The position numbers and the translations under genes are program-made. Positions 34 through 33,263 of a stretch of DNA of 33,702 bases are shown in pieces. The notes under the pieces are model-generated. The model saw nothing but the letters and a program-made list of their open reading frames with translations, ran no database searches and was not told where the DNA came from. Origin of the DNA: Acidobacteriota bacterium (GTDB lineage Bacteria > Acidobacteriota > UBA6911); contig QHZE01000096.1 of the NCBI GenBank assembly GCA_003225335.1, positions 1 through 33,702 of the forward strand. Direction: 5' to 3'. How positions within the stretch are numbered: the first letter of the stretch is position 1; the number at the start of each line of letters is the position of its first letter.

Positions 34-3000
34 TTAACCACGCTCTACTCCCACCTGAGGTCGCGTTTGAACGACGTAGAACAGTCCTCCCACATAAGCG
101 CCTTCGATGTCCTGCGGAGAGCCAAAGACGCGCTCGAGGGCCAGGCCGATTCGAGCAATCTCTTTGAGAAGTTCGTTTCTGAGCCGTTCATCCCAGACGA
201 TCGGTTCCACGGTGTAATCCAGAGCCACGCGGCGAGGCGGTTCCAGGAGAACGCTGTCATACAATCCCGCGCCTGCGTATCCCGCCAGGTCTTCCCCACT
301 GGAGTCTGATCTAAAGATCAAGCCGCCCCCATAGAGGCCCTCGCTCTTGCTTGGATACGCCACAAGGTTAAGCTGGAGCGTTTTCTTGTTGCAGCTGAAG
401 CTCAGCGCTCTTCCCGGATAATTGGCCACCAGCGACTCGCCCAGGCCGAGCACGACCTCGGCATAGACTTCGCCCCTATTGCCAGAGAAAGGGTTGACCG
501 TGTGAATAACGAAAGCATATTCGGCTTCAATCACCTGCTGTATGAGCACGGCCATGAAAAGGTCCTCATGGGCAATACCCCTGGCGTTGCGGCTCAGATA
601 AGCCCGATCGTTCCACTTTGAAGCCCACACTCTTTTTATGCAAGTCCAGGCACCCTCCCAGTTCTGCGGCCAGGCGAGCCCCGCCCCTTTCATGGCTTCG
701 CGCAGACTCGGCGCCAGTTCCTCCGGCGCCGCGAGCGCCGGGACAAGAGCGCGAAGTTCCGAGAGAGCCTTCCGGGGGTCTCCTTCCAGCTCGCCCACCA
801 GTTCTTCATAACGCCTGGCAACATCCCGGTTAATGTCCAGCTCCATCACTCTTTCAAAAACTCCGAATGGGAGCGCAACCGAGGACGGAACAGAGACCCC
901 CTCAGGCAGACTCTCGTGGAGAAGCCGCAGATTGTAAGATTTCTGCCCTACGATCCCTTGCTTGAAATCGCGCTCTGCCAGTGCGTACGCGTGGAACTCC
1001 GGCCTCGGAGCCGGGTGTGAAGAGGGCAAAGATCGAGGCGCATTCGAGGTCTCCTCGAGCTCCACCTCCTCGAATGTCACGTCGCCGCCTGCGCTCACGT
1101 CAAGATGCAGGGTTCGCCCGCGCAGCGATTTCAACTGGCCGAATATCTGTGAGTCGTAACAGGTCGCGAAGAGAAGATTGGCGTTCCTCGCCCGCACTGC
1201 GACGTGCGACACGATATCCGTGGCATCGGAAGCAATGACTGCGGTGACTGAGGCGGGAATCTCCTCGTCCCCCCGCACTTTGTCCGCAATCACTACGGCC
1301 GGGCCGTCAAATTCTTTACCTTGCACATCGGCGAGGGCGTCGACCACTTCCACTCTCCCTCCGCCGGAGCCCCGGCTGATCACCTGCCAGTTCCCAAGAC
1401 GCGCCGTTTTCCGGAGTATCGGATCCATGTGATGGAGAAGCATGGAAAGCACGAAAGCCGGACCGCCGCGCACCACTTCCTCGCTGAATAGCGTGATGGT
1501 CCATGGATCGGCATGGAAGGCGCTGCCGAGAAACTCCGCCTTGGGCTGCAGCCACTGGTAACACTCATCGATCTCGGCGCTCAGGGCGCGTCCCAGCCGT
1601 TCCAGAACGGCCTTGGCGTGCAGAGCCCATTCCGGGCTGAAGCGGGAGATGTTTCCGAGACGCTCCCAGTGGCGCAGGCAGCGCGTAAGCTCGGGATCGT
1701 TCCCTGAGAGAGAGAGATTTTCAAGTACCCGCGCTATCACATCGACCAGCTGGTCGCCGCTCCATTGCAGATGTATGTTTCGCTCCACGACCATCCGCAG
1801 GAACTGTTCGAGCGCAAGGTCCAGGTAGAGCAGCTCACGCACTCCATGGTCCCGGGTCAAAACCTGGTTCAGGCGGCGCGCTTCAGTTATTCGCCCGATC
1901 AGCTGCACCCATGGTATCTGAAGATCGTTTCGCTGTTGCCAGAGCGACGAAAGCAGACCCCGAATCCCGTCGTCCAGCAGGTGATTCGCGGCGTTGATGG
2001 CCGTCTCGAGGTCGGTGCCGGAGTGGACCGACCTGAGCGTTTTCAGGAAGTGCTCGAAATCGTGAATCAAGCCCTCTTTGAGGTGCGGCACGAAATCAGG
2101 ATCGGTGCGGATGGGCCGTTCGAAGCTCTCCAGGCGCTGCCTGGTGACACCGCCCGCTCGAAGGGTCTTATAGAATCCGTCAAGATTTCCGTTGCCGCGC
2201 AAGAAGGCCAGATACGCCTCGCAAATGACAATATCGTCGGGTGTTGTATTGTTGTGGAGCTTCTGATGCCATTCTTCCATAAAGCGCCCGGAGACCTCTT
2301 TGATGTGATGGCGGTGCATGATATTGAGTATTTCATCACGGATCTCCTGCCCTTCTCCGCCTCGTCCCACGGTGGTCAGCATGAGCCGAATGAGGGGACG
2401 GCTCGCGGCATCATGGGCGTAGATACCGGCCAGCTTCCCTGTGAGCCGGTCCTGGGCGTGGCTCAACTCCCGGGGCTTGGTGTTGTAGTTGCGTTGCCAG
2501 TCTAACTGGCGGATGGCGGAAAAACGCAGCCAGACAAAGAGCAGCGCGAGTCCCTCAGGATTATTCCCGACCCGGTCCAGCAGGTCATGGCACAGGCTAA
2601 AACGATGCATCAGCGTCCAGGAGCTGCGGCTCATCTCCGCGCGAACGATTTCTTCCGCGAGACTCGAAAGCTCCCGGAGGTCCACAACGGTCCCCGTTTG
2701 CGCCTGCTCCCCCACAGGAATGTAAAAATTGGAGCCGTGATCCTTGATCCAGCGGTTCGAGCCGGCATCTCTCAATACAAATGGAATACCCAGCGGGGCA
2801 TCGTCCGCCTGGAATTCGAGCGCCAGCCGGTTCAGCTCGTCCTGCGAGTCAAAGGTCGTCTCCGCTGCGATGTTGTTCCAGACCGAAGTGTCAGGCGGCC
2901 GAAGCGGGGCGGGAGGGACTAACCATTCATGGGGAGAACGCCGGGCGATGCCCCAGTGCAGAATCAAAGGTCCGGCCAGATCCGTAATAAGTTCGATCCG

Positions 3001-3507
3001 GTAGATGTCGGCTTCCCTGGTCACGGCGACGGCGAGCTGCCGGTCCCGGTCCACGGCATACGCGCACTCGAAAGAAATCCGCTTCCCCTCAGACCGTTCA
3101 CGAAGGGCCTGAACGGGAGCCACTCCGGCCGGCCCCCGCAGCGAAAGAGCGATCCGGTAGTTCAGGCCGTTGTTGTTGTCCCACTGCCCCTCGTCCGGGA
3201 AAAACAGCGCGAAGTCGATAGAGGAATAGTCCGGCCCCCGACGCAGGCGGATCGTGAGGCGAATGGCGCCGTTCTGTCTCAAAAATGGGGTCTGCAGGGC
3301 CATTTGATTGAAGTTCCTGGTGCCTTCGGGCCAGAACGATTCAGGAGGAAGCAGCCATGCTTTCGAAGTATGACGGCGCACGCCCCAGTGCAAAAGGCAA
3401 TTGCTCTTCCCCTCCAGGCGAAGAGATACTTCGATCTCGTCCTCTCGATCGCTGGTCTCCACCAGAATCGTAACGCCGCTTTTGGTCGCTATCGTCTCCA
3501 TGGTCAT
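34..3507 (-). CDS. Plant-type alpha-glucan water dikinase (GWD/R1-like): two N-terminal CBM45-like repeats, phosphohistidine domain, C-terminal PEP-synthase-like ATP-binding domain
   Basis: 1157-aa ORF. GWD-type motifs: EEWHQKLHNNTTPDDIVICEAYLAFL; DATDIVSHVAVRARNANLLFATCYD (phosphohistidine region); VPSSVALPFGVFERVM; IKRVWASKWNDRAYLSRN; EYAFVIHTVNPFSGNRGEVYAEVVLGLGESLVANYPGRALSF; FRSDSSGEDLAGYAGAGLYDSV. Two N-terminal LHWG...W.LPP repeats resemble CBM45. Confidence 0.9.
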   Translation of the reverse strand: MTMETIATKSGVTILVETSDREDEIEVSLRLEGKSNCLLHWGVRRHTSKAWLLPPESFWPEGTRNFNQMALQTPFLRQNGAIRLTIRLRRGPDYSSIDFALFFPDEGQWDNNNGLNYRIALSLRGPAGVAPVQALRERSEGKRISFECAYAVDRDRQLAVAVTREADIYRIELITDLAGPLILHWGIARRSPHEWLVPPAPLRPPDTSVWNNIAAETTFDSQDELNRLALEFQADDAPLGIPFVLRDAGSNRWIKDHGSNFYIPVGEQAQTGTVVDLRELSSLAEEIVRAEMSRSSWTLMHRFSLCHDLLDRVGNNPEGLALLFVWLRFSAIRQLDWQRNYNTKPRELSHAQDRLTGKLAGIYAHDAASRPLIRLMLTTVGRGGEGQEIRDEILNIMHRHHIKEVSGRFMEEWHQKLHNNTTPDDIVICEAYLAFLRGNGNLDGFYKTLRAGGVTRQRLESFERPIRTDPDFVPHLKEGLIHDFEHFLKTLRSVHSGTDLETAINAANHLLDDGIRGLLSSLWQQRNDLQIPWVQLIGRITEARRLNQVLTRDHGVRELLYLDLALEQFLRMVVERNIHLQWSGDQLVDVIARVLENLSLSGNDPELTRCLRHWERLGNISRFSPEWALHAKAVLERLGRALSAEIDECYQWLQPKAEFLGSAFHADPWTITLFSEEVVRGGPAFVLSMLLHHMDPILRKTARLGNWQVISRGSGGGRVEVVDALADVQGKEFDGPAVVIADKVRGDEEIPASVTAVIASDATDIVSHVAVRARNANLLFATCYDSQIFGQLKSLRGRTLHLDVSAGGDVTFEEVELEETSNAPRSLPSSHPAPRPEFHAYALAERDFKQGIVGQKSYNLRLLHESLPEGVSVPSSVALPFGVFERVMELDINRDVARRYEELVGELEGDPRKALSELRALVPALAAPEELAPSLREAMKGAGLAWPQNWEGAWTCIKRVWASKWNDRAYLSRNARGIAHEDLFMAVLIQQVIEAEYAFVIHTVNPFSGNRGEVYAEVVLGLGESLVANYPGRALSFSCNKKTLQLNLVAYPSKSEGLYGGGLIFRSDSSGEDLAGYAGAGLYDSVLLEPPRRVALDYTVEPIVWDERLRNELLKEIARIGLALERVFGSPQDIEGAYVGGLFYVVQTRPQVGVERG

Positions 3508-8609: not shown

Positions 8610-9575
8610 TCATTTGCCGGAAGAGATCCCGAAATCGAGCATCCGTTCGTTGTTCGCGGTGATATCCGCCTCCAGCTCTTTCTCGTCAACCCAGGAAGCG
8701 GAACGCGCCTGCTCAAGCGATTGCGGGATCTGCGACGGCTGAAGCGGCTGTCGAGCGGGCCCTGCCTCAATCGCCTTTGCTTCAGCGTGCTCTATGAATT
8801 CAGTATCCCCTCCTGGCACAAGGCTCGCTTCTGCCTTTGCCGGCGATTCGGGAGTAAGCGGCGGGGTCGAGATCGATAGTTTCGGAGAAGTATCGGCCTT
8901 CGCCTGCACTTCGGGATCGGGCGCCGGGAGAGTCTCGGCCCGTGCATGCTCCCCTTCCACTTTCAAATAGCGTTCTTCCACCTTATCGGAAGGGAAGGCG
9001 CGCGGCGTCTGGACTACGTTGGAGCGCGCTAGCGGATAAAAGCGGCCGTCTTCGGTCTTAAGACCCAGATCCGCGTAGTACGACCTTGCCGGACTCCAGA
9101 GGTGCACATACCAGTTCCCGGCTTCCAACTGTATGTCGACATCGAACGAAGCGCGACCGCCTTCACGGGACACCCGATCCGTAATGTCGCAAAAGCGCAA
9201 AGCGGCCTGGATCCGCCGGTCATCCATTTGGCCCCTGGCCCTCTCGAGATCGCCGCCGTCTACATACCAGTATGCGTGAATGAGGTAGGGGTTGACAGGC
9301 AGCAATATCACGGTGGACTCTTCCCAGGGTGCAGACAGGTCGCCAGTCTCCATGACAAGAGGATACGAAATGCGTGAAGGTTCCGCCCTTTCGGCGCGCG
9401 ACTCTGTTGCTTTCGATACCTCCCCGTCCCTTCTGCCAAAGAATCTGAATTCAGCAGGGAGATCCACGCGGCTCCGCAGCAATCCCAGCCCGATGCGGCC
9501 TAACACGTCCACGAGTCTCACCAGGGGTCTGTAAAACATCGCAAATACCAGTCCGAGCGCAGAGGCAATACTCAT
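8610..9575 (-). CDS. DUF4912 domain-containing protein with N-terminal hydrophobic segment and low-complexity C-terminus
   Basis: 321-aa ORF. Core VILLPVNPYLIHAYWYVDGGDLERA...LRFCDITD...FDVDIQLEAGNWYVHLWSPARSYYADLGLKTEDGRFYPLARSNVVQTPR is typical of DUF4912, which often neighbours GH57 genes. Confidence 0.8.
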   Translation of the reverse strand: MSIASALGLVFAMFYRPLVRLVDVLGRIGLGLLRSRVDLPAEFRFFGRRDGEVSKATESRAERAEPSRISYPLVMETGDLSAPWEESTVILLPVNPYLIHAYWYVDGGDLERARGQMDDRRIQAALRFCDITDRVSREGGRASFDVDIQLEAGNWYVHLWSPARSYYADLGLKTEDGRFYPLARSNVVQTPRAFPSDKVEERYLKVEGEHARAETLPAPDPEVQAKADTSPKLSISTPPLTPESPAKAEASLVPGGDTEFIEHAEAKAIEAGPARQPLQPSQIPQSLEQARSASWVDEKELEADITANNERMLDFGISSGK

Positions 9576-9874: not shown

Positions 9875-11062
9875 TCAATTGAGGCGGTGGACCGTCAGCA
9901 GCGTGTAGTCGTCGGTCGGGCTGGCGTTGCCCAGGAACTTGCCAAGAATTGCGTCCAGGGAGTTTAGAAACTCCTCGTTTTCCAGTTGAGCGTTCTCTCT
10001 GAGCAGCGCTGGAAGCATGGCGCCGAACACCGACAGGTCGTCGGGCGACGCCTCGGAGATCCCGTCTGTAAAGGCAAAGAGCCGGTCTCCGGAGGATAGT
10101 TGAATCTCCTGATCGACGTAGCCGCCTTCTCCGAATACTCCAAGACAGAAGCCCGTGGACTCCAACTTTTTGACGTCCCGGTTGGATCTTTTGTACAGGA
10201 GCGGAGGTACGTGCCCCGCAAGGGCATAAACAAGCAGGCCCGTTTCGCAGTTCAGGACGCCCGAAAAGGCTGTCAGGTACTTGCCTCGATCCGCGCAGAA
10301 CTGGAAGGCATGGTTCAGCAGCGACAGAATCTTCGAGGGGCGTGTCTCCGCAGAGAGCGCGTCCTCGAGAGCGATCTTGAGCATGGCAGCCAGAAGGGCC
10401 GCCGATACGCCGTGGCCCACAGCATCCGCCAGAAAGATGCTGGCCAGATTCCCGCCAAGCGGGCGCAGATCGTAAAAATCTCCGCCAATGTTAGCCACGG
10501 GCCTGTAGCGGGTGAGGATCTGAAAAGGGCCCTGGTCCATGCGCGCAGGGGAAAGCATGCTCGTCTGAAGTCGCGCCGCCATTTCCAGTTCCTGCATCAT
10601 CTTTCGATTCAAGAGCGCTTGCTGGCGCAGGCTGGTCTGCAGCGCCTGAATGGCTTCATTCAATTGGCGGTTTTTGAGGAGCAGCTCTTCCTGCAATTTT
10701 TGCACGCGCTCGGCCGCGTGCACCCTGGCCACGAGCTCTCGCAGCTCAAAAGGCTTGGGCAGATAATCATCGGCTCCCGCCTCCAGGCCGCGCTCTACTT
10801 CAGCCAATTCGGCCCGAGCCGTCAGCATGATCACATAAGTATGCGGCACGTTCTCCATTGCGCGCAGGCGGCTCAAGACACCGTAACCGTCCAGGACGGG
10901 CATGTTGACGTCAAGAATCATGATATCGGGACGGACCTGCTCCACGAGACGGAGCCCTTCCAGCCCGTCCGGCGCCGGTAAGACCTCGTAGCCCAAAGAC
11001 GAAAGCTTCTCAACAAGAAGGTCGCGAATGGAACGTTCATCGTCAACGATCAGAATGCGCAT
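9875..11062 (-). CDS. Response regulator with receiver domain, coiled coil and PP2C/SpoIIE (RsbU-like) phosphatase domain
   Basis: Start taken at MRILIVDDERSIRDLL (11062) rather than the longer ORF start at 11140. REC phosphoacceptor region MILDVNMPVLDGYGV, ADDYLPKPFE; PP2C motifs IGGDFYDL, ADAVGHGVSAALLAAMLK, FTDGISEA, DDYTLLTVHRL. Confidence 0.9.
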   Translation of the reverse strand: MRILIVDDERSIRDLLVEKLSSLGYEVLPAPDGLEGLRLVEQVRPDIMILDVNMPVLDGYGVLSRLRAMENVPHTYVIMLTARAELAEVERGLEAGADDYLPKPFELRELVARVHAAERVQKLQEELLLKNRQLNEAIQALQTSLRQQALLNRKMMQELEMAARLQTSMLSPARMDQGPFQILTRYRPVANIGGDFYDLRPLGGNLASIFLADAVGHGVSAALLAAMLKIALEDALSAETRPSKILSLLNHAFQFCADRGKYLTAFSGVLNCETGLLVYALAGHVPPLLYKRSNRDVKKLESTGFCLGVFGEGGYVDQEIQLSSGDRLFAFTDGISEASPDDLSVFGAMLPALLRENAQLENEEFLNSLDAILGKFLGNASPTDDYTLLTVHRLN

Positions 11063-11175
11063 GGCCTCTCGCTTTCGGGGAAAAGAGTGGATGCACAGTA
11101 TAGCCTGGATTCCGGCCTGGTACATAGCCCCATTGTGCATTCTCCAACGGTCTCGGCAAAGTCAGCGATTTCTTG

Positions 11176-17180: not shown

Positions 17181-17259
17181 CACCACGAAGACACGAAGAC
17201 GCGAAGATCCACCACGTTCTTGCCTGTGTGAATCTTCGTGTCTTCGTGTCTTTGTGGTG
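17181..17259. repeat. Inverted repeat CACCACGAAGACACGAAGACGCGAAGAT / ATCTTCGTGTCTTCGTGTCTTTGTGGTG (family C)
   Basis: 28-nt arms 17181-17208 and 17232-17259, 26/28 complementary, between the TonB receptor and the TPR gene. A related half-copy is at 11731-11760. Confidence 0.85.
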
Positions 17260-21482: not shown

Positions 21483-21662
21483 GTGAGCACACTCAGCCTT
21501 CGCCTGCCAAACTCGCTCCATGAGCGGGCGCGCGAGCTCGCCGGGCGGGAGGGCATTTCGATGAGTACCTCGACGCCGCAGTAGCCTGGCGCGCTACCTC
21601 CGGGCGTTGGCGCAGGTACCGGACGTCGAGCCGGAGCCGTCCGACCGGCACTCACGAGAGCG
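21483..21662 (+). pseudogene. Degenerate antitoxin-like (HicB/RHH-type) small protein, truncated and frameshifted
   Basis: GTG start after a GGAGGG RBS gives VSTLSLRLPNSLHERARELAGREGISM then a stop at 21582. A C-terminal-looking fragment LARYLRALAQVPDVEPEPSDR resumes in another frame from about 21586. Confidence 0.55.
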
Positions 21663-24600
21663 GCCAGTAGAGCTTCGCATAGCCCCAGACTGCCGGCCAG
21701 GGACCGCCGTATTCACGCGCCATGCGGTGCACGCAGCGGCGGAAAACGCGCCGCATGCCTTTACCGTAGGGACGCAAGCAAGCACCCGCGAATTCCTTGT
21801 TCAGGCGGCGTCGCGCCTCCTTGAAGGCTGTCTTCTTTTCCGGTTGCGGACTGCTGCGCAATTTCACCACGGCATCTGCCAGTGCGAACACCTTTTGCAT
21901 GAAGGGCCTAAAATCCGAAGCCTGGAATGTGTCAATCGTTTGCGCTGCGCGGTTCGCATCTCCCGCGAGCAACTCCTCCACCGCCAGCCACAATGCGAAA
22001 TCGTTTGAGGTATGATCGCGTATCGGCAGGCGAAGCGCGGCGCGGCAGACTTCGTTGGCCTCGGTGACACGGCCAAGGTCTCGGAAGGCCACCACCAGGT
22101 TTGAGAGCATCCACGGCTCGGCGTTCGGATGATCGCGCCAGCTTGCGAGCCACTTCACGACGGCTCGCCGCCGTCGCATACTCGTCAGCGTATAGCCTAC
22201 CGTGCCCCAAGCCTGGTCGTCTTTCGCCAGCCACGCCCGGTGCCGATGCAGCAGCCGCCATAGCAGAAACCCGTGCTCGAGGCGCGATGAACCGCGCCGG
22301 ACGAAGGGCTGGCGGACCGTTTTGCCCATGGCGTTCACATACGCGATAATGGCGCGCCGCCCAATCTCGCCGCGTTTGTGAAGACGGTCCAGTGTGCCGA
22401 GGATGAACCACCGGTCCCGAGCCAACTGGCGTTGCACCCAGACTTCACCCAACAGCGGGGCGGCATCCGGCAAGGCCAGCGCTTCGCGGAAGACTGCGTC
22501 CACCTCCCTTCGCCGGCCAAGCTTGTCGAGCGTCTCGGCGATGCCGGAGAGCGGCCACGGATCGTCGAGGTTCGCCACGCAAAGCTTCTTCAGAATGGCA
22601 AGCGCCTGATCGAACTGTTTCTGATAGGCCGCCAATTGGGCGGCGCGGGCTTCCACGAGCTCGCCGCCCACGTGCTGCCTCAGCCCTGCCAGCAATTCTG
22701 CCGCCGCGCGATCGTTCCGTTCTTCGAGCTCCAAATCGAACAGGCTGAACCCGGCGTAGCCGTAGGCGGGATCGAGCGCCAGGGCGCGGCGGAAATCCTC
22801 TTTGGCCCCGGCGCGGTCGCGGCTGCGGAGCTTCATGTCGCCCAGGTAGCACAGTGGCGTCGGGTTGAGCGGCTCCAGTTCTGCCATTTTTTGCACGGCT
22901 TCGATGGCTGCCTTGTGTTCGCCGATGTTCGAATGCCAACCTGCCAGGCATTGCCAGCCCCAGAACAGGCCCGGATTCTCCGCCACCACCACGTGCATCA
23001 TGACGATGGCCTTCTTCACATCGCCACGTTCGCCTTCAATCCAGGCGGCGCGAGCGCGAAGCTCGACGGGTGGCCGCTCACCCCATGCCTCCGGCCGGCA
23101 CGCAGCCAGCGCTTCCTCAAAACGCTTCTCTCGCGCAAGCACCGCGGCTTTGATGTCATGAGCGACAGGATCGCGCGGCTGAAGAGCAATCGCTTTGTCG
23201 AGTGCGGCGTGGAGCTCCACCTTCTCATTCGAGGCAACCAGCGTTTCGGCGAGCAACAGCCAAGGCCGCGCTTCCCCGCCGCGGCGGACGATAAGCTGAC
23301 GCGCCATCCGCGGCGCGAGCTCTGGCTGGCCGATCTCAGCGGCCCACTGGCGCAGCGCGCGCCAGGCCCAGTCGTAGTTCGGGTTCAACTCCAGCGCGTG
23401 TTGTATGCATGCGATGGCTTCCTGCTTCTCGTCGAGCTTCCACAGCACGTCGGCCAGGCATCCATGGTTCGAGGAATCCAGCGGCGAAGCCGCGCAGGCA
23501 TCTTCGAGAACTTTCCGTGATTTGTGGAATTCACCCGCGCGCGCATGCAGGTCCGCGAGCCGCTGCGATGCGATTCCGTAAGCGGGCTTGATTTGCAGCG
23601 CTTGCCGCAGGCAGGCGGCTTCCTCGGGGGCATTCAAGCGGGCCTGATGGACGAAAGCGCGATCGAGCCACAGCCGGGGCAGCAAAGGGAACCGCTCGGT
23701 GGCTTCGCGCGCGAGCTTCTCGGCTTCATCAAGGCGCTGGAGATCGACCAGTTGGAGAATGACCGCAGACCAGGCGTGCCACAGGTCGGGGCGCGCCGTC
23801 AGCGCCTGCCGCAGGAATGTCAGCAATTCCTGCGGCTGCAAAATGCCGCGCGCGATCTTGCGGAACGCGAGCACCCCATCCCCGAAGACGGTCTGCCGGA
23901 TCAACTCTTGTTCGATGAAGCTCAGCGCTTGCTTTCGTTCTTCGAGACTGGCGGAAACCTTCATCAGCGAAGCGATGGCAAACTCGGTGTCAACCGCAAG
24001 CCGCAATGCCTGTTGGAAATCCGTGCGTGCGGCGTCGGGATGGCCCTGGCGCAAAAGCAAGTCTCCGCGCACGCAGAATCCGTCGGGATGCACCGGTTCG
24101 AGTTGGAGGGCCTGGTCCGCTTCGGCCATAGCTTCGGGAAAGCGGCCCTGCTTCGCTAACGTGGCGGCCAGTTGGCGATGCGACCAGGCATCCGCCGGGT
24201 TGATCTCCAGCAGACGGCGAACAATCGGTTCCACGGCCCTGGCGCCTTCCTCGTGGAGCCAGTTGATCCATAGCTGGTGCAACGCGAAGTGATGCGGGAA
24301 GCGGGCGCACGCCAGTTCGAGATGCTGAAGAGCGGCGGCCCGGCCTTCAATTTCGGCCAGCAGCCACGTTACGGCGCGGTGGCCGTCCATCGAAAGCGGT
24401 TCCAGTTCGAGCGCTTCGCGCCAGAGCGAAAGCGCAGCCTTGTTGTCGCCGCGAAAATGCGCCATATCCGCGGCAGCGCGCAGCGTGGCGACCCTGGGCG
24501 CGCGGCCATTGGCGCGTTCAAGAAGTTTCCCGGCCTCATCAAGTTTTCCCCAGCGAGCGCAGGTCGTGGCGCCAAAAAGAAGCAGGTCGCCGTCGGAGGG

Positions 24601-26739
24601 ACAACGCTGCAAGGCTTGTTCCAACACTGCGAACGCTTGCGGGACTTCGTCGATCTCGCTGAGGGCGTCGAATAATGTGATGGCGGGCCAGCCCGATTTG
24701 CCGCCAAAACGCTCAAACCGCTGCTGAAGGAACTGCAACGCCTGCTGGGTCTGCTTGAGGTGGCGGGCAGCGCTGAAGTAACTGCGCGCAGGTTGCTCTT
24801 TCTTGTCGTCCAGGCAGGCGGCGAACCGGTACATTTCGACCGCCTGCTCGAAGTCGCGTTGCAGCCAGAGCAGGTCCGCGAAGCCGCCGAGGTTGATGGC
24901 ATCGGTAGGCCGGAAGCGCAGCGCCCGGCGCAGCCAATGCGCGGCGGCTTCATGTTCGCGGGCGTCGGCGCGGAGTTCCTGGGCGAATTCCTGCCAGAAG
25001 GCCGGGTCGGCCTCCGGCTCGGCGCACAACTTCTCCAGCAGCGACAAACGGTCCTCCCGCCGGGAGAGCTCGCGCAGACAGGAAAGTTTGGCGAGTTGAG
25101 AAGTGCCGTCATCGGGAAACTGTTCGAGCAACTCGTTCAGGCAGGCGAGCAACGCCGGAGTGTTCTGGTCGTAGCTCGCGAGGGACCGTTTGGCGCTGAG
25201 GGTGAGCCGATGCTTCGGTCCATCGGCCTCCATCTGCTGGAACACGATTTGAGCTTCGGCGCGTTGGTGCTGAAAAAGCGCGCGTTGCAGCGCATGCAGT
25301 CGATCGAAGAGCGCCGCATCGGGGAGGTCGAGATCGTCGAGCAAATGCGCCTGAGCTTTCGGCACGAGCGCCATGCCGCGCGGCCCGCGGGCGCGGTAGT
25401 GCTCGAGGAAAGCTTCCGCCACTGCTTCGCCCGCGTAATACTGATAGGGGTCGCGAATGATCAGCGTGCCGCGCAAATCGTCGTAACCGATGACGGCCTG
25501 CAGGTGGGCGCTCGTCGCTTCTGCAGTAACCAGAGTGAACGGCACGCCGCGATTCAACAAAACGACGGCAGCTTCCCAGGTCACCGTGAACTCACGCGCT
25601 ATCCAGCCGTTTTGCTCGGCCCAGTGGCGTTCGCTGTGGGCGGGCGTGCCGTCGTAGCAAATGATCTCGGCGACCGCCAGATGCTCGGCCGGCAGGTTCC
25701 AGAAGTTGCTGATGGCCGTGAGGGTGGCCGGAGCGCAGGTCTGGTGATGCTGGCGGACGAAGTTGACAGACAGTTTAACGCGGCGGCGCGCCGCGCCTGG
25801 CTGCGAAATCCGGTCGGCGAACTTCTGAAAATAAGCGTAGTCGGTCTGCCGGGCGAAGCGGGCCGCCGCGTCGAATTCGCCGCAGTAGTAGGCAACCTGC
25901 GCCCGCTGAATCGTGAGCCACTCGGTGTAATCCTCCTCGAGAATAGGCGACAACGCGGCGATCGCGTCAAGCGAGACGTGCGCGTTGCTAAACTTCTCCA
26001 GATCGATCTGCAGAATCGCCAGCTGCGTCAGGACGGGAACGCTCTCAAAACGTTGCGCGGCGGCTTCGAGCAGTTCCAGCGCTTCATCGTCGCGGTCGAG
26101 GAGTTGCAGAAAGTGGGCCGTGGATTGGACTCCGGGGCGATACCACGCGCGCAGTTCAAGTGAATGGCGCGCCGCGGCCAAGCCCTCCTCATAACGATCT
26201 TCCAGCTCGAACAGATGGGCGCGTTCAGTCCAAAGCCATGGACTCAGCGGATCGATCTGCTCCGCGCGCTTGAGCCATTCCTCCGCCCGTTCGAAATCCC
26301 GCATGAGGGCGAAGACACGAGCGCGCAGGCAGCGGAGATATTGCCGGCCGTCGCGGGAAGCCTCGTCCTCGCCCGGCCCTTCCTCGAGCAGACGCAGGAG
26401 CTTCCAGGCGGCCAGGGGACCGCGTTGTTCGAGGACTGTGGCGGCGAAGTAGGCTTGGGCTTGCGCGTCCTGCGGCGCGGAGCGATAGGCGCGGAAGTGC
26501 AGCCAGCGTCCCAACCGGGGCGCGCCCAGGTTGCCGGCGACGCGGCCCACCATGATCTGCGCGCGCGCGCCAGTCCATGCCGGCAGCGGCCCCAGCGTCA
26601 ACGCGAGATCAAGCGCCTGCCGGACAAGGCCCCGCTCGTAAAGGTCGCGGAGCCTGAAGAGATCCTGGGCGGAAACCGCCACCGCAGGTTTCTGGGCAAA
26701 GAGGTTGTGCACTCGTCTCCTCTCTTGCGCTGTCTGCAT
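21652..26739 (-). CDS. Very large tetratricopeptide-repeat protein with embedded C39-like papain-fold peptidase domain (about 25380-25790)
   Basis: 1695-aa ORF with multiple TPR motifs across its length; KLSVNFVRQHHQTCAPATLTAISNFW (Cys), SAHLQAVIGYDD (His), IIRDPYQYYAGE (Asp) follow C39 order. Confidence 0.85.
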   Translation of the reverse strand: MQTAQERRRVHNLFAQKPAVAVSAQDLFRLRDLYERGLVRQALDLALTLGPLPAWTGARAQIMVGRVAGNLGAPRLGRWLHFRAYRSAPQDAQAQAYFAATVLEQRGPLAAWKLLRLLEEGPGEDEASRDGRQYLRCLRARVFALMRDFERAEEWLKRAEQIDPLSPWLWTERAHLFELEDRYEEGLAAARHSLELRAWYRPGVQSTAHFLQLLDRDDEALELLEAAAQRFESVPVLTQLAILQIDLEKFSNAHVSLDAIAALSPILEEDYTEWLTIQRAQVAYYCGEFDAAARFARQTDYAYFQKFADRISQPGAARRRVKLSVNFVRQHHQTCAPATLTAISNFWNLPAEHLAVAEIICYDGTPAHSERHWAEQNGWIAREFTVTWEAAVVLLNRGVPFTLVTAEATSAHLQAVIGYDDLRGTLIIRDPYQYYAGEAVAEAFLEHYRARGPRGMALVPKAQAHLLDDLDLPDAALFDRLHALQRALFQHQRAEAQIVFQQMEADGPKHRLTLSAKRSLASYDQNTPALLACLNELLEQFPDDGTSQLAKLSCLRELSRREDRLSLLEKLCAEPEADPAFWQEFAQELRADAREHEAAAHWLRRALRFRPTDAINLGGFADLLWLQRDFEQAVEMYRFAACLDDKKEQPARSYFSAARHLKQTQQALQFLQQRFERFGGKSGWPAITLFDALSEIDEVPQAFAVLEQALQRCPSDGDLLLFGATTCARWGKLDEAGKLLERANGRAPRVATLRAAADMAHFRGDNKAALSLWREALELEPLSMDGHRAVTWLLAEIEGRAAALQHLELACARFPHHFALHQLWINWLHEEGARAVEPIVRRLLEINPADAWSHRQLAATLAKQGRFPEAMAEADQALQLEPVHPDGFCVRGDLLLRQGHPDAARTDFQQALRLAVDTEFAIASLMKVSASLEERKQALSFIEQELIRQTVFGDGVLAFRKIARGILQPQELLTFLRQALTARPDLWHAWSAVILQLVDLQRLDEAEKLAREATERFPLLPRLWLDRAFVHQARLNAPEEAACLRQALQIKPAYGIASQRLADLHARAGEFHKSRKVLEDACAASPLDSSNHGCLADVLWKLDEKQEAIACIQHALELNPNYDWAWRALRQWAAEIGQPELAPRMARQLIVRRGGEARPWLLLAETLVASNEKVELHAALDKAIALQPRDPVAHDIKAAVLAREKRFEEALAACRPEAWGERPPVELRARAAWIEGERGDVKKAIVMMHVVVAENPGLFWGWQCLAGWHSNIGEHKAAIEAVQKMAELEPLNPTPLCYLGDMKLRSRDRAGAKEDFRRALALDPAYGYAGFSLFDLELEERNDRAAAELLAGLRQHVGGELVEARAAQLAAYQKQFDQALAILKKLCVANLDDPWPLSGIAETLDKLGRRREVDAVFREALALPDAAPLLGEVWVQRQLARDRWFILGTLDRLHKRGEIGRRAIIAYVNAMGKTVRQPFVRRGSSRLEHGFLLWRLLHRHRAWLAKDDQAWGTVGYTLTSMRRRRAVVKWLASWRDHPNAEPWMLSNLVVAFRDLGRVTEANEVCRAALRLPIRDHTSNDFALWLAVEELLAGDANRAAQTIDTFQASDFRPFMQKVFALADAVVKLRSSPQPEKKTAFKEARRRLNKEFAGACLRPYGKGMRRVFRRCVHRMAREYGGPWPAVWGYAKLYWPLS

Positions 26740-28907: not shown

Positions 28908-29180
28908 GACGCCTCCAGAATTAGCAGCGGTGACGATTGTCCGTGAATTTTTCGGAACCGGCATACAGGCATAGCATCAAAAAGTCATTGACGCAACAAC
29001 CTGTAACAACTCTTAACAACTCTCTGTCGCGAAACCAGGGGGATTAGTGGACCATCCGATGGTTGGGCATTTCGACGTGACGCGCGACGGCCGGCGTTTT
29101 CTCGTCGTGACCGTAAGTGAAGAGACGGCGGCTGGGGCCGTTCACGGTCGTGCTCAACTGGACAGCGGAGTCGAAAAAGT

Positions 29181-29235
29181 GTTTTCGTATAATTCGTGAA
29201 ATTCGCGGCCAGTTTTTTCTCAGTGGCTCTGTGGC
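29181..29235 (+). repeat. Repeat family B, copy in opposite orientation
   Basis: gttttcgtataattcgtgaaattcgcggccagttttttctcagtggctctgtggcc matches the reverse complement of 9686-9747. Confidence 0.75.
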
Positions 29236-29338
29236 CAATGACGGTTTTTTGCCACGGACACACCGAGGCACGGCTTATCAATGGTGCTCCGGCGCTGGAA
29301 TCGTTTATAGTATCCGCAGTTTACCGGAGGACTCGGTA

Positions 29339-31714
29339 ATGAATCGCGGGGCGCTTTGGATTCTCCGATGGATAGCGGTGCTGTTTTTGGTCGTCGCCCC
29401 GATCGCTGTGGGGCGCACGCAGCAACAATCGGCCGTTCTGCCTCCGCCGGCCCCCTCACCCGAGCGTGCCGCCGTCAATCGATATTGCGTCGGCTGCCAC
29501 AACAACCAATTGAAGACGGCGGGACTCGAGCTCGACACGATCGGCGCTCAGAGCCTGAGTGCGCACCAGGAAGCGTGGGAGAAGGTGGTCCGGAAGCTTC
29601 GGTCCCGTTACATGCCGCCCCCAGGAATGCCTCGGCCGGATGAGCACACCTACGACGCCCTGGTGTCCTCGCTGGAGGCCTCGCTTGACAATGCGGCCGC
29701 GGCCAAACCCAATCCCGGCCGAACGGACACGTTCCGTCGACTCAACCGGACCGAATACCAGAACGCCATCCGCGACCTTCTTGCGCTCGAAGTCGATGTC
29801 GCCTCGCTTCTGCCGGGCGATGAGTCGAGCCAAGGCTTTGACAATGTGACGGTCGGCGATCTCTCTCCGACGTTATTGGAGCGATACCTGTCGGCGGCCC
29901 AGAAGATCAGCCGGCTGGCGATTGGACGCCCCAGCCGTTCTCCCGGCGGCGTTACCATCAACCTTCCGCCGGACCTCACACAGGAGGAGCACTTCGAGGA
30001 CCTTCCGCCCGGCACACGCGGCGGATTGGTGGTTCGCTGTACCTTCCCGCTGGACGCCGAGTACGAGATCCAGCTTCGGCTTGCGCGAGACCGCAATGAG
30101 CACGTCGAGGGCTTGAACGAGGCCCACGAGGTGGAGCTGATGTTGGATGGCGAGCGGCTGCGGTTGTTCACGGTGAAGCCGCCGCCGAAAGAGAACGACC
30201 ATCATCTCGTGGACAATGACCTCAAGCTCCGCGTCCCCGTGAAGGCCGGTCCGCACGCGGTCGCCGCCGCATTTCCGAAGAAGACCTCAGCCTTGCTCGA
30301 AACGGAGCGTCAGCCGTACCAGGCACACTTCAATATGGACCGGCATCCCCGGCCTCAGCCGGCTCTGTACTCGATTTCCGTCAACGGCCCTTATGAAGCC
30401 AAAGGACCCGGCGACACGCCCAGCCGCCGCCGGATTTTTGTCTGCCGGCCGGCGAAGGCAGGCGAGGAAGAAGGCTGTGCCAAACGCATCCTGGCGACTT
30501 TGATGCGCCGCGCCTACCGGCGGCCCGTGACCGACGCCGATTTGCGGATACCGATGAGGTTCTACAAAGACGCGCTGCCGGACGGTGGATTTGAGGCGGG
30601 GATTGAAATGGCATTGCGCGCGGTGCTGGTAAGTCCGGAATTCCTGTTTCGCGTCGAACAGGATCCTGCCGGCGTTGCTCCGAATACTGCCTATCGCATC
30701 ACCGACCTGCAACTGGCATCGCGCCTGTCCTTCTTCCTCTGGAGCAGTATTCCGGACGACGAGCTTCTCCAGGCGGCCATTCGAGGAAAACTCAAAAAGC
30801 CCGAGGTGCTCGAACAACAAGTCCGGCGCATGCTGGCGGATGACCGGTCGCGAGCCCTGGTGAGCAACTTTGCCGAGCAGTGGCTGTATCTGCGGAATCT
30901 TGCCTCGACGACTCCGGACATGCGCCTGTTCCCGGACTTCGATGACAATCTGCGGCAAGCCTTGCGCCAGGAAACGGAGCTGTTTTTTGAGAGTATAATG
31001 CGCGAGGATCGCAACGTGCTCGACCTGCTCAGGGCGAAGTACACGTTCGTCAACGGACGCCTGGCCAGGCACTACGGAATTCCGAACGTGTACGGCAGCC
31101 GCTTCCGGCGCATCACGTTCGGCGACGACAGCGTGCGAGGCGGGCTGCTGCGCCAGGGGAGCGTTCTGACGGTGACTTCCTATGCCACGCGGACCTCGCC
31201 CGTGATTCGCGGCAAGTGGATCCTGACCAATATTCTCGGCGTGCCTCCACCGCCGCCACCCGGGGCGGTGCCGGCGCTGAAGGAGAACGGCGGGACAGGT
31301 AAGACTTTGTCCATGCGGGAGCGCATGGCCGAACATCGCGCCAATCCCGCCTGCTCAGGCTGCCATCAGCTTATGGATCCGGTCGGCTTCTCGATGGAGA
31401 ACTACGATGCGGTGGGCCGCTGGCGAACCCTCGAGGAGGCTAAACGAATCGATGCCTCCGGGGGGCTTCCGGACGGCAGCAAATTCGAAGGTGTGTCCGG
31501 ACTCCAGCAGGCCCTGTTGAGACGTCCGGAGATTTTTGTTACGACTTTTGCTGAAAAGCTTCTTACTTACAGCTTGGGCCGGGGAGTCGAGTACTACGAC
31601 GCCCCGGCAATCCGAAAGATCGTACAGGAGGCCCGGACCAAGGATTTCCGGTTCTCGTCAATCATCCTGGGAATAGCTGGCAGCACACCATTCCAGATGA
31701 GGAGATCGCAATGA
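29339..31714 (+). CDS. DUF1587/DUF1592/DUF1595/DUF1588/DUF1585 domain protein with planctomycete-type cytochrome c motif
   Basis: ATG at 29339 after CCGGAGGA RBS; signal peptide; CVGCH haem-binding motif; RRLNRTEYQNAIRDLLAL; CAKRILATLMRRAYRRPVTDADL; CSGCHQLMDPVGFSMENYDAVGRWR; second CxxCH. Confidence 0.92.
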   Translation: MNRGALWILRWIAVLFLVVAPIAVGRTQQQSAVLPPPAPSPERAAVNRYCVGCHNNQLKTAGLELDTIGAQSLSAHQEAWEKVVRKLRSRYMPPPGMPRPDEHTYDALVSSLEASLDNAAAAKPNPGRTDTFRRLNRTEYQNAIRDLLALEVDVASLLPGDESSQGFDNVTVGDLSPTLLERYLSAAQKISRLAIGRPSRSPGGVTINLPPDLTQEEHFEDLPPGTRGGLVVRCTFPLDAEYEIQLRLARDRNEHVEGLNEAHEVELMLDGERLRLFTVKPPPKENDHHLVDNDLKLRVPVKAGPHAVAAAFPKKTSALLETERQPYQAHFNMDRHPRPQPALYSISVNGPYEAKGPGDTPSRRRIFVCRPAKAGEEEGCAKRILATLMRRAYRRPVTDADLRIPMRFYKDALPDGGFEAGIEMALRAVLVSPEFLFRVEQDPAGVAPNTAYRITDLQLASRLSFFLWSSIPDDELLQAAIRGKLKKPEVLEQQVRRMLADDRSRALVSNFAEQWLYLRNLASTTPDMRLFPDFDDNLRQALRQETELFFESIMREDRNVLDLLRAKYTFVNGRLARHYGIPNVYGSRFRRITFGDDSVRGGLLRQGSVLTVTSYATRTSPVIRGKWILTNILGVPPPPPPGAVPALKENGGTGKTLSMRERMAEHRANPACSGCHQLMDPVGFSMENYDAVGRWRTLEEAKRIDASGGLPDGSKFEGVSGLQQALLRRPEIFVTTFAEKLLTYSLGRGVEYYDAPAIRKIVQEARTKDFRFSSIILGIAGSTPFQMRRSQ

Positions 31715-33054
31715 TCATTACGAAGAAGGCTCTACCGCGGCGAACGTTTTTGCGGGGCATGGGCGCGTCCCTTGCGCTGCCGTTGCTGGATGCCATGGTT
31801 CCGGCCATGACCGCCCTGGCCGCCACGACGGCCAATCCGGTGCGCCGCCTGGGTTTTGTGTACGTACCGATGGGAGCCCATATCCCTCAGTGGACTCCTC
31901 CAGGCTCGGGGCGCCTCACCGAACTTTCGCCGACACTCCTCTCCCTGGCGCCGTTTGTGGATCAGCTCACCGTGATCACCAATCTGGAGCTGAAGAACGC
32001 CTATCCCGGCACGCATGCAACCTCCAACGCCGCCTTCCTGAGTGCCGCCAGGGCGAAGTGGACCGAAAGCACCGACTACTACCTGGGCACCACGGTCGAT
32101 CAAGTCGCCGCCAGGCAGATCGGCGGGGAGACTCCTCTGCCGTCGCTCGAGCTCGCGATGGATTTGCTCACCACGGTCGGCCAGTGTGACAATGGTTATG
32201 CGTGTGTCTACCAGAACAATCTCTCCTGGTCGTCACCGACGACGCCGCTTCCGGCAGAGGCTCACCCGCGCGTTGTGTTCGAGCGCCTTTTCGGCGATGG
32301 GGGGAGTGCGGCGGACCGGCTCACGGAGCTGCGGAAGAGATCGAGCCTTCTCGATTGGGTCAGGGAGGATATCTCCCGCCTTCAGAACAGGCTCGGCCCG
32401 GGCGACCGTACCAAGGTCGGTCAGTATCTGGATACCGTTCGAGAGGTGGAGCGACGCATTCAGAAGGCCGAGGCCCAGACGGCCGATTCCCCGCTGCCGG
32501 ATCTGGATCGCCCGGTTGGCGTACCGGCTGCTTACGCAGATCACGCGCGGCTGATGTTCGACTTGCAGGTGCTGGCTCTCCAGGGCGACGTCACAAGGGT
32601 GATTACGTTTCAACTGGCTCGCGAAACAAGCACGCGAACCTATCCCGAGATCGGCGTTTCCGATCCGCACCACCCGCTGACGCACAATGGCGGCAATCCG
32701 GAAATGCTCGCGAAGGTGGCCAAGATCAATGCGTTCCATGTGTCGCTGTTCGCCTATTTCCTGGACAAGCTGAAGGCCACGCCGGATGGCAACGGTTCCC
32801 TGCTGGACCATTCGGCCTACCTGTATGGCAGCGGCATGAGCAATGCCGACAAGCATGACCACGTAAACTTGCCGATTCTTGTCGCCGGCGGCGGAGCAGG
32901 CAGGATCAAGGGAGGGCGTCACATCAAGTATTCGGAACCTACGCCGCTGGCCAATCTTCACCTGACGCTGCTCGATATGGCAGGGGTGCATCTCGACGCT
33001 TTCGCAGACAGCCAAGGCAAGGTCAAGGAGCTGCTCGAGCCGCTTTCTCTGTAG
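31711..33054 (+). CDS. DUF1552 domain-containing protein with Tat signal
   Basis: 447 aa: LPRRTFLRGMGASLALPLLDAMVPAM; GFVYVPMGAH; ATSNAAFLSAA; LLDHSAYLYGSGMSNADKHDHVNLPILVAGGGAG. ATGA overlap with the upstream stop. Confidence 0.92.
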   Translation: MIITKKALPRRTFLRGMGASLALPLLDAMVPAMTALAATTANPVRRLGFVYVPMGAHIPQWTPPGSGRLTELSPTLLSLAPFVDQLTVITNLELKNAYPGTHATSNAAFLSAARAKWTESTDYYLGTTVDQVAARQIGGETPLPSLELAMDLLTTVGQCDNGYACVYQNNLSWSSPTTPLPAEAHPRVVFERLFGDGGSAADRLTELRKRSSLLDWVREDISRLQNRLGPGDRTKVGQYLDTVREVERRIQKAEAQTADSPLPDLDRPVGVPAAYADHARLMFDLQVLALQGDVTRVITFQLARETSTRTYPEIGVSDPHHPLTHNGGNPEMLAKVAKINAFHVSLFAYFLDKLKATPDGNGSLLDHSAYLYGSGMSNADKHDHVNLPILVAGGGAGRIKGGRHIKYSEPTPLANLHLTLLDMAGVHLDAFADSQGKVKELLEPLSL

Positions 33055-33114: not shown

Positions 33115-33190
33115 TCCTGGGAGAGCACGCATCTTGCGTGCTCTGTGAGTCGCGAAACCGTGAGCGCGCTGGAAGCGTGCGCTCCCAGGA
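33115..33190. repeat. Nested inverted repeat (TCCTGGGAGAGCACGCA / AGCGTGCGCTCCCAGGA) with inner perfect hairpin 33123-33143
   Basis: Outer arms 33115-33131 and 33174-33190 (15/17); inner gagcacgca-tct-tgcgtgctc. Confidence 0.75.
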
Positions 33191-33263
33191 AGCGTCCTCA
33201 CCCCTCTGCTTCTCCTGTGGTGAATTTTTCTTGGTTGCGGCTATGCTGCGCTGTGTAAATCTT

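Follow-up and report, generated by a model that had tools for sequence, protein, structure and literature searches.

The Acidobacteriota contig QHZE01000096.1 (assembly GCA_003225335.1), whose entire 33,702 nucleotides were analysed here (C415, hereafter the window), carries a gene, gwd, that is confirmed as encoding a genuine bacterial alpha-glucan, water dikinase (GWD), as judged from domain architecture and from catalytic and binding residues. The open reading frame on the minus strand starts with ATG, has no internal stops and encodes 1157 amino acids (Table 1). A preliminary description of the window had claimed that the likeness to plant GWD spans the full length of the protein and goes beyond the ATP domain of phosphoenolpyruvate (PEP) synthase. 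Indeed, Pfam models matched throughout, namely PF23166 (GWD1 Ig-like N-terminal domain, E 8.6e-51) in two copies, PF22973 (GWD1 phosphohistidine domain) and PF01326 (PPDK_N, E 1.8e-28) in two stretches, and the best PDB matches were the potato GWD central-domain structures 9ha9/9qvi (E ~4e-92), with 42-44% identity over the central domain. PEP synthases were matched over the ATP domain only, and the NCBIfam PEP-synthase models scored 17-68 bits against cut-offs of at least 598. Neither Pfam nor NCBIfam gave a PEP/pyruvate-binding domain in the protein, PPDK_N alone being matched, and there was no Pfam match to CBM20.

All motifs named in the preliminary description were present: HQKLHNNTTPDDIVICEA at residues 414-431, the phosphohistidine motif DIVSHVAVRARN at residues 764-775, RVWASKWNDRAYLSRN at residues 959-974 and FRSDSSGEDLAGYAGAGLYDSV at residues 1065-1086. 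The codon of His768, which lies within the phosphohistidine motif, was found exactly where it had been placed, and this residue is conserved in at least 95% of 75 bacterial GWDs. In the ATP domain, VWASKW precedes RSDSSGEDL in 51 of the 51 bacterial GWDs for which both motifs were matched, the reverse of the segment order in PEP synthase; we presume that plant GWDs have this same order. In the window protein LFATC stands in place of the plant redox motif CFATC, whose first Cys is missing from all bacterial GWD copies with a readable motif, so thioredoxin control through a disulphide of this motif is not expected. As a membership test for GWD, CFATC is not truly defining, since it is not universal in plants: position C1079 is L in grasses and Chlamydomonas (PMC7569903).

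The tandem CBM45-like repeats of the preliminary description held up as well. Two LHWG repeats, with HWG at residues 40 and 184, belong to the two copies of PF23166, and both modules have five aromatics at near-plant spacing (10/48/10/8, versus 10/45/10/8 in plant CBM45-1, where W129, W139, F184, W194 and F202 are the starch-binding aromatics; PMC7569903, Table 3). In module 1, Y117 replaces the last F of the W-W-F-W-F set. The other four positions of this module (W41, W51, F99 and W109) were counted in other bacterial copies and are nearly invariant; about half of the relatives have a single module only. The CBM45 assignment was made from PF23166 and from the five-aromatic comparison with plant CBM45-1.

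Among 84,980 species genomes scanned, 107 relatives were found, of which 80 were kept. These comprise 39 from Nitrospirota, 11 from Desulfobacterota (Thermodesulfobacteriota), 8 "Deltaproteobacteria" filed under Myxococcota, 6 from Verrucomicrobiota, 5 from Planctomycetota (4 of them anammox bacteria), 5 from Pseudomonadota, 1 from Nitrospinota, 1 from Acidobacteriota and 4 that are unresolved. Of 296 sampled Nitrospirota genomes, 23 scored above the cut-off. No relatives were found in viral contigs and phages, and no plasmid record held gwd over its full length, only ATP domains of the PEP-synthase type being matched there.

The gene is rare around its host, with a single carrier among 396 genomes of the phylum and one among 15 of the family, a pattern that would fit recent horizontal acquisition by this bacterium from a plant or an alga; the legend of Fig. 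9 in a 2018 study likewise suggests from its tree that some bacteria could have GWD through lateral gene transfer (PMC6260743). The closest sequences to the window central domain are nevertheless bacterial, at 68-71% identity versus 42% for potato, and the minimum identity among bacterial GWDs is 39%, as low as to potato. We built a central-domain tree rooted on a second dikinase, described below, with potato GWD as the one plant sequence and a very long outgroup branch. In this tree potato GWD joins the bacterial GWDs against the paralogous dikinase (support 100/100), and it is sister to all bacterial GWDs, which form a clade of their own (94/90). Because this deep bacterial clade leaves out potato, a recent plant donor is argued against, and we regard such a transfer as scarcely credible. 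Acquisition of the window gene from another bacterium appears more likely, whereas a far older transfer between the domains may have happened in either direction, given one plant sequence and the long outgroup branch.

Absence of gwd from the other 14 family genomes, together with a fragmented assembly (7.5 Mb in 795 contigs, with 3.6% contamination), could also point to a misbinned contig that brought in the gene from another metagenome organism. We compared the window with 20 sampled contigs of the genome plus contig C741 of the same genome, and with 1.2 Mb of other organisms. The tetranucleotide correlation was 0.965 with own-genome contigs and 0.55-0.90 with other organisms, and dispersed repeats common to the window and other own-genome contigs were absent or nearly so in the 1.2 Mb. 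An outer-membrane OMP_b-brl_4 TonB-type protein on the window had its closest plasmid-record match in Granulicella. From composition and shared repeats the contig is thus taken as native, probably acidobacterial, and misbinning is very improbable. The repeats, GGGAGCGCACGC... and CTTCGCGTCTTCGTGTC..., were seen at 33116-33191 and 17181-17256 of the window and at 4172-5048 of L089.

Upstream of gwd, a minus-strand run encodes GlgA, a fusion of GH57 branching enzyme and a second GlgA, a DUF4912 protein and a response regulator-PP2C protein. The last of these is possibly a regulator of the glycogen cluster, its membership of which is uncertain. DUF4912 occurs in 10 of the 80 gwd-bearing loci (window counted) and recurs in the glucan clusters of relatives, and DUF4912, GH57 and GlgA co-occur with gwd in other phyla. 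Of the relatives' loci, 53 span 12 kb or more; 30 of these contain an alpha-glucan gene and 12 contain GlgA, GH57 branching enzyme or GlgB. Glycogen phosphorylase is encoded in the same genome; a debranching-enzyme gene was not seen at this locus. The separate GlgA is distinct from the GlgA half of the fusion (36% identical), which is itself full, and sampled family genomes match one half of the fusion or the other, never the whole.

On its downstream side, gwd ends 33 bases short of the contig edge. C741 overlaps the gene at 98% along 290 bp, and on it lies the next downstream gene, TIM1, which encodes a TIM barrel of 291 amino acids (L089:7034-7909, PF01261). C741 was considered as the site of another gwd copy, but this was rejected because it is the overlapping continuation of the window contig. 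No phosphatase of the SEX4/LSF2/laforin type was identified beside gwd, where the search was confined to the neighbourhood rather than made genome-wide.

Residues H88, H122, E153, D185, H188, H214/216/218, D225, H227 and E261 are invariant in 39 of 39 TIM1 proteins. They align to endonuclease IV in the pattern of its trinuclear site, with nine metal-ligand equivalents kept, when compared with what we take to be the E. coli ligand list, which profile alignments partly bear out. Profile matches were obtained to MJ1311 (1.5e-15) and endonuclease IV (8.5e-6), and the confident TIM-barrel model (predicted local distance difference test 90.6) matched MJ1311, AP endonucleases and ketose 3-epimerases. 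In contrast to endonuclease IV and MJ1311, TIM1 adjoins glucan dikinases or is fused to them. Endonuclease IV also has phosphomonoesterase activity, and we therefore propose that TIM1 may be a phosphoglucan phosphatase, to which we give a little less than an even chance from its fold, metal residues and gene association.

TIM1 belongs to a conserved cassette. Of the 67 loci in which gwd is followed by another gene, TIM1 comes next in 41, 24 times as a fusion with a second dikinase (DIK2) and 17 times alone, and in relatives the gwd stop and the TIM1 start mostly lie no more than tens of bases apart. Further genes often found are TIM2, GH13, DUF4912, GH57 branching enzyme and GlgA, with long runs in L010, L023, L039 and L043. 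This deeply diverged second dikinase shares homology with GWD over the stretch that runs from residue 277 to the C-terminus (hhalign E 3.6e-95, 27% identity) and retains the phosphohistidine motif SH(L/M)(A/G)(V/I)RAR in readable copies; its ATP-domain segments are in PEP-synthase order (8 DIK2 proteins), whereas those of GWD are rearranged. Two DIK2 proteins gave no Pfam match to CBM20. In its phosphohistidine and ATP-domain blocks DIK2 presumably resembles plant PWD, a likeness that we treat as a lead only. With loci having at least 6 kb downstream, TIM2 was present in 16 of 19 that have the second dikinase and in 0 of 20 that lack it (Fisher 2.6e-8, a value that overstates the association because the loci come from related genomes). 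TIM2 retains a His/Asp/Glu set similar to that of TIM1, and a structure search with it gave weak matches (TM ~0.45). As separate observations, the cassette GH13 (L023:17643-18998, L043:16463-18808) gave a match of 2.7e-25 to PF14701, the glucanotransferase domain found in glycogen debranching enzyme of the eukaryotic type, and TIM2-GH13 fusions exist in L043 and L045. In the genome of the window the second dikinase was not found, PF22973 being matched once only, nor were TIM2 and the operon-type GH13, for which a TIM2-GH13 query gave just a 27% amylase-type match. We read the cassette as a putative phosphorylation/dephosphorylation module.

It is very likely that the window GWD is active on alpha-glucan. 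The enzyme would move the beta-phosphate of ATP onto His768, with the gamma-phosphate going to water and AMP left, and would then transfer this phosphate, probably to the C6 position, onto glucosyl residues in the glycogen-like alpha-glucan made by the cell itself, on which the two N-terminal CBM45-type modules would hold the enzyme. It would work alongside the two glycogen synthases and the GH57 branching enzyme, with a presumed role in turnover or solubility of the glucan. TIM1 may act as the partner phosphoester hydrolase that removes the phosphate, the job of plant SEX4/LSF2, and many relatives have in addition a second dikinase, a second metal TIM barrel and a GH13. The likeliest role of the enzyme, in our view, is to phosphorylate the glycogen-like glucan of its own cell, because gwd lies in one run with DUF4912, GH57-GlgA and a second GlgA. 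Several observations weigh against this picture. In relatives, 41 of the 53 loci that reach 12 kb have neither GlgA, GH57 branching enzyme nor GlgB in the DNA at hand; the 927-residue GWD of Acidobacteria fen_186 (L065:2314-5097) is without CBM45 modules; and its neighbours, named by reading translations, are PPK2-like, CHAD and Ppx/GppA genes, so that the setting is one of polyphosphate and not of glycogen. In the genome of the window, moreover, the gap between gwd and TIM1 is about 155 bp, and the fold of TIM1 is also that of sugar epimerases and multinuclear iron oxidases, which makes its role as a phosphatase a guess; it could instead be an enzyme of either kind.

From the loci without glycogen synthase and from L065, the substrate of bacterial GWDs may vary, and the acceptor could be another carbohydrate (a cell-surface or secreted polysaccharide, a maltodextrin pool or something polyphosphate-linked) rather than storage glycogen. 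For the window we find this unlikely, since its GWD retains two CBM45 modules whose aromatics are intact and adjoins GlgA and GH57-GlgA, genes that recur with DUF4912 and gwd in other phyla. The preliminary description had also allowed for a semi-crystalline, starch-like glucan, and GWD opening crystalline granules of such a polymer would add to phosphorylation of the cell's own glucan rather than replace it. Plant GWD acts on granules, the literature links GWD to starch makers (PMC6260743) and the CBM45 modules are intact, but the glycogen synthase and GH57 branching enzyme encoded next to it are ordinary glycogen enzymes, and the locus showed no debranching-enzyme gene. Thus glucan phosphorylation, as first suggested, gains from the glycogen-synthesis neighbourhood, whereas the semi-crystalline polymer does not and appears rather improbable.

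Among known systems, plant and algal GWD1 (EC 2.7.9.4) shares with the window protein two CBM45-type modules, central, phosphohistidine and ATP domains, the motifs and ~42% central-domain identity; the window protein differs in being shorter, with its modules directly in tandem and the first CFATC Cys absent, and in being encoded in a bacterial gene cluster. PWD/GWD3 (EC 2.7.9.5), of which DIK2 may be the counterpart, has the dikinase core in common with it, whereas the window GWD has CBM45-type modules, the GWD order and no CBM20; in DIK2 a TIM barrel takes the place of CBM20. PEP synthase (pyruvate, water dikinase) is alike in its ATP-binding domain and phosphohistidine chemistry, and the window GWD departs from it by its missing PEP/pyruvate-binding domain, reversed domain order and rearranged ATP domain. 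SEX4, LSF2 and laforin do the job proposed for TIM1 and TIM2 with an unrelated fold.

In earlier work, starch accumulators were the only organisms known to have GWD, and its origin was proposed to coincide with that of the primary plastid (PMC6260743). The split between GWD and PWD was found to predate the ancestor of Archaeplastida, and no homologue was found in Gloeomargarita, the closest cyanobacterial kin of the plastid (PMC6805951); phosphorylation of bacterial glycogen is treated as a matter of open speculation (PMC13011383). Bacterial GWDs as such are already known in passing, from the figure legend cited above. We found no description in the open-licence literature, where the comma in "glucan, water dikinase" may evade a phrase search, of the conserved cassette of second dikinase, two metal TIM barrels and GH13. 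That the window gene belongs to a bacterial clade spanning many phyla and having this cassette had not been anticipated in the preliminary description. Because several bacterial phyla contain scattered GWD relatives, in many cases with a second dikinase and a possible phosphate remover, storage-sugar phosphorylation may not be a plant invention. We tentatively suggest, while doubting it on balance, that the cassette constitutes a complete non-plant glucan phosphorylation cycle in multiple phyla, in which GWD and a PWD-like dikinase would each have their own endonuclease-IV-like TIM-barrel phosphoglucan phosphatase, and from which plant GWD/PWD would descend or with which they would share ancestry. 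With a deep bacterial clade and its cassette, the restriction of GWD to starch makers, the origin of GWD and PWD and the phosphorylation of bacterial glycogen become testable in bacteria, and bacterial GWDs may offer simpler enzymes for structure work and for production of phosphorylated starch.

Table 1. Features of gwd and of the neighbouring genes in the window, with the evidence for each
Feature	Position	Strand	Evidence
gwd, alpha-glucan, water dikinase, 1157 aa	34..3507	minus	open reading frame, Pfam, PDB sequence search, tree, motifs
CBM45-type module 1 (residues 25-140); W41 W51 F99 W109 Y117	3088..3435	minus	PF23166 copies, aromatic spacing
CBM45-type module 2 (residues 150-265); W185 W195 F243 W253 F261	2713..3060	minus	PF23166, best stretch 150-265
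GWD central domain (residues 283-702)	1402..2661	minus	phmmer vs potato GWD 9ha9, E 4.3e-92
Phosphohistidine domain (residues 706-819)	1051..1392	minus	PF22973, E 1.2e-34
His768 codon, predicted phosphoryl-carrying histidine	1204..1206	minus	conservation and motif
LFATC, plant redox motif CFATC minus first Cys	1159..1173	minus	motif and alignment
ATP-binding PPDK_N-type domain (residues 850-1151)	55..960	minus	PF01326; RSDSSGEDL segment after VWASKW
glgA, glycogen synthase (GT5), 489 aa	3629..5098	minus	NF001905, E 3e-260
GH57 branching enzyme fused to second GlgA, 1034 aa	5353..8457	minus	PF03065, PF09210, PF08323; TIGR02095, E 2e-165
DUF4912 protein	8610..9575	minus	PF16258, E 1.6e-29
Response regulator-PP2C (RsbU type) phosphatase	9875..11140	minus	PF00072, PF07228

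Scans of the window for Rfam families, tRNAs and promoters or terminators gave nothing of use. Elsewhere in the window, positions 21652-26739 encode a tetratricopeptide-repeat protein of 1695 amino acids with a C39-like peptidase domain, and positions 29117-33054 encode a DUF1592/1588/1585/1587/1595 protein and, next to it, a DUF1552 protein.

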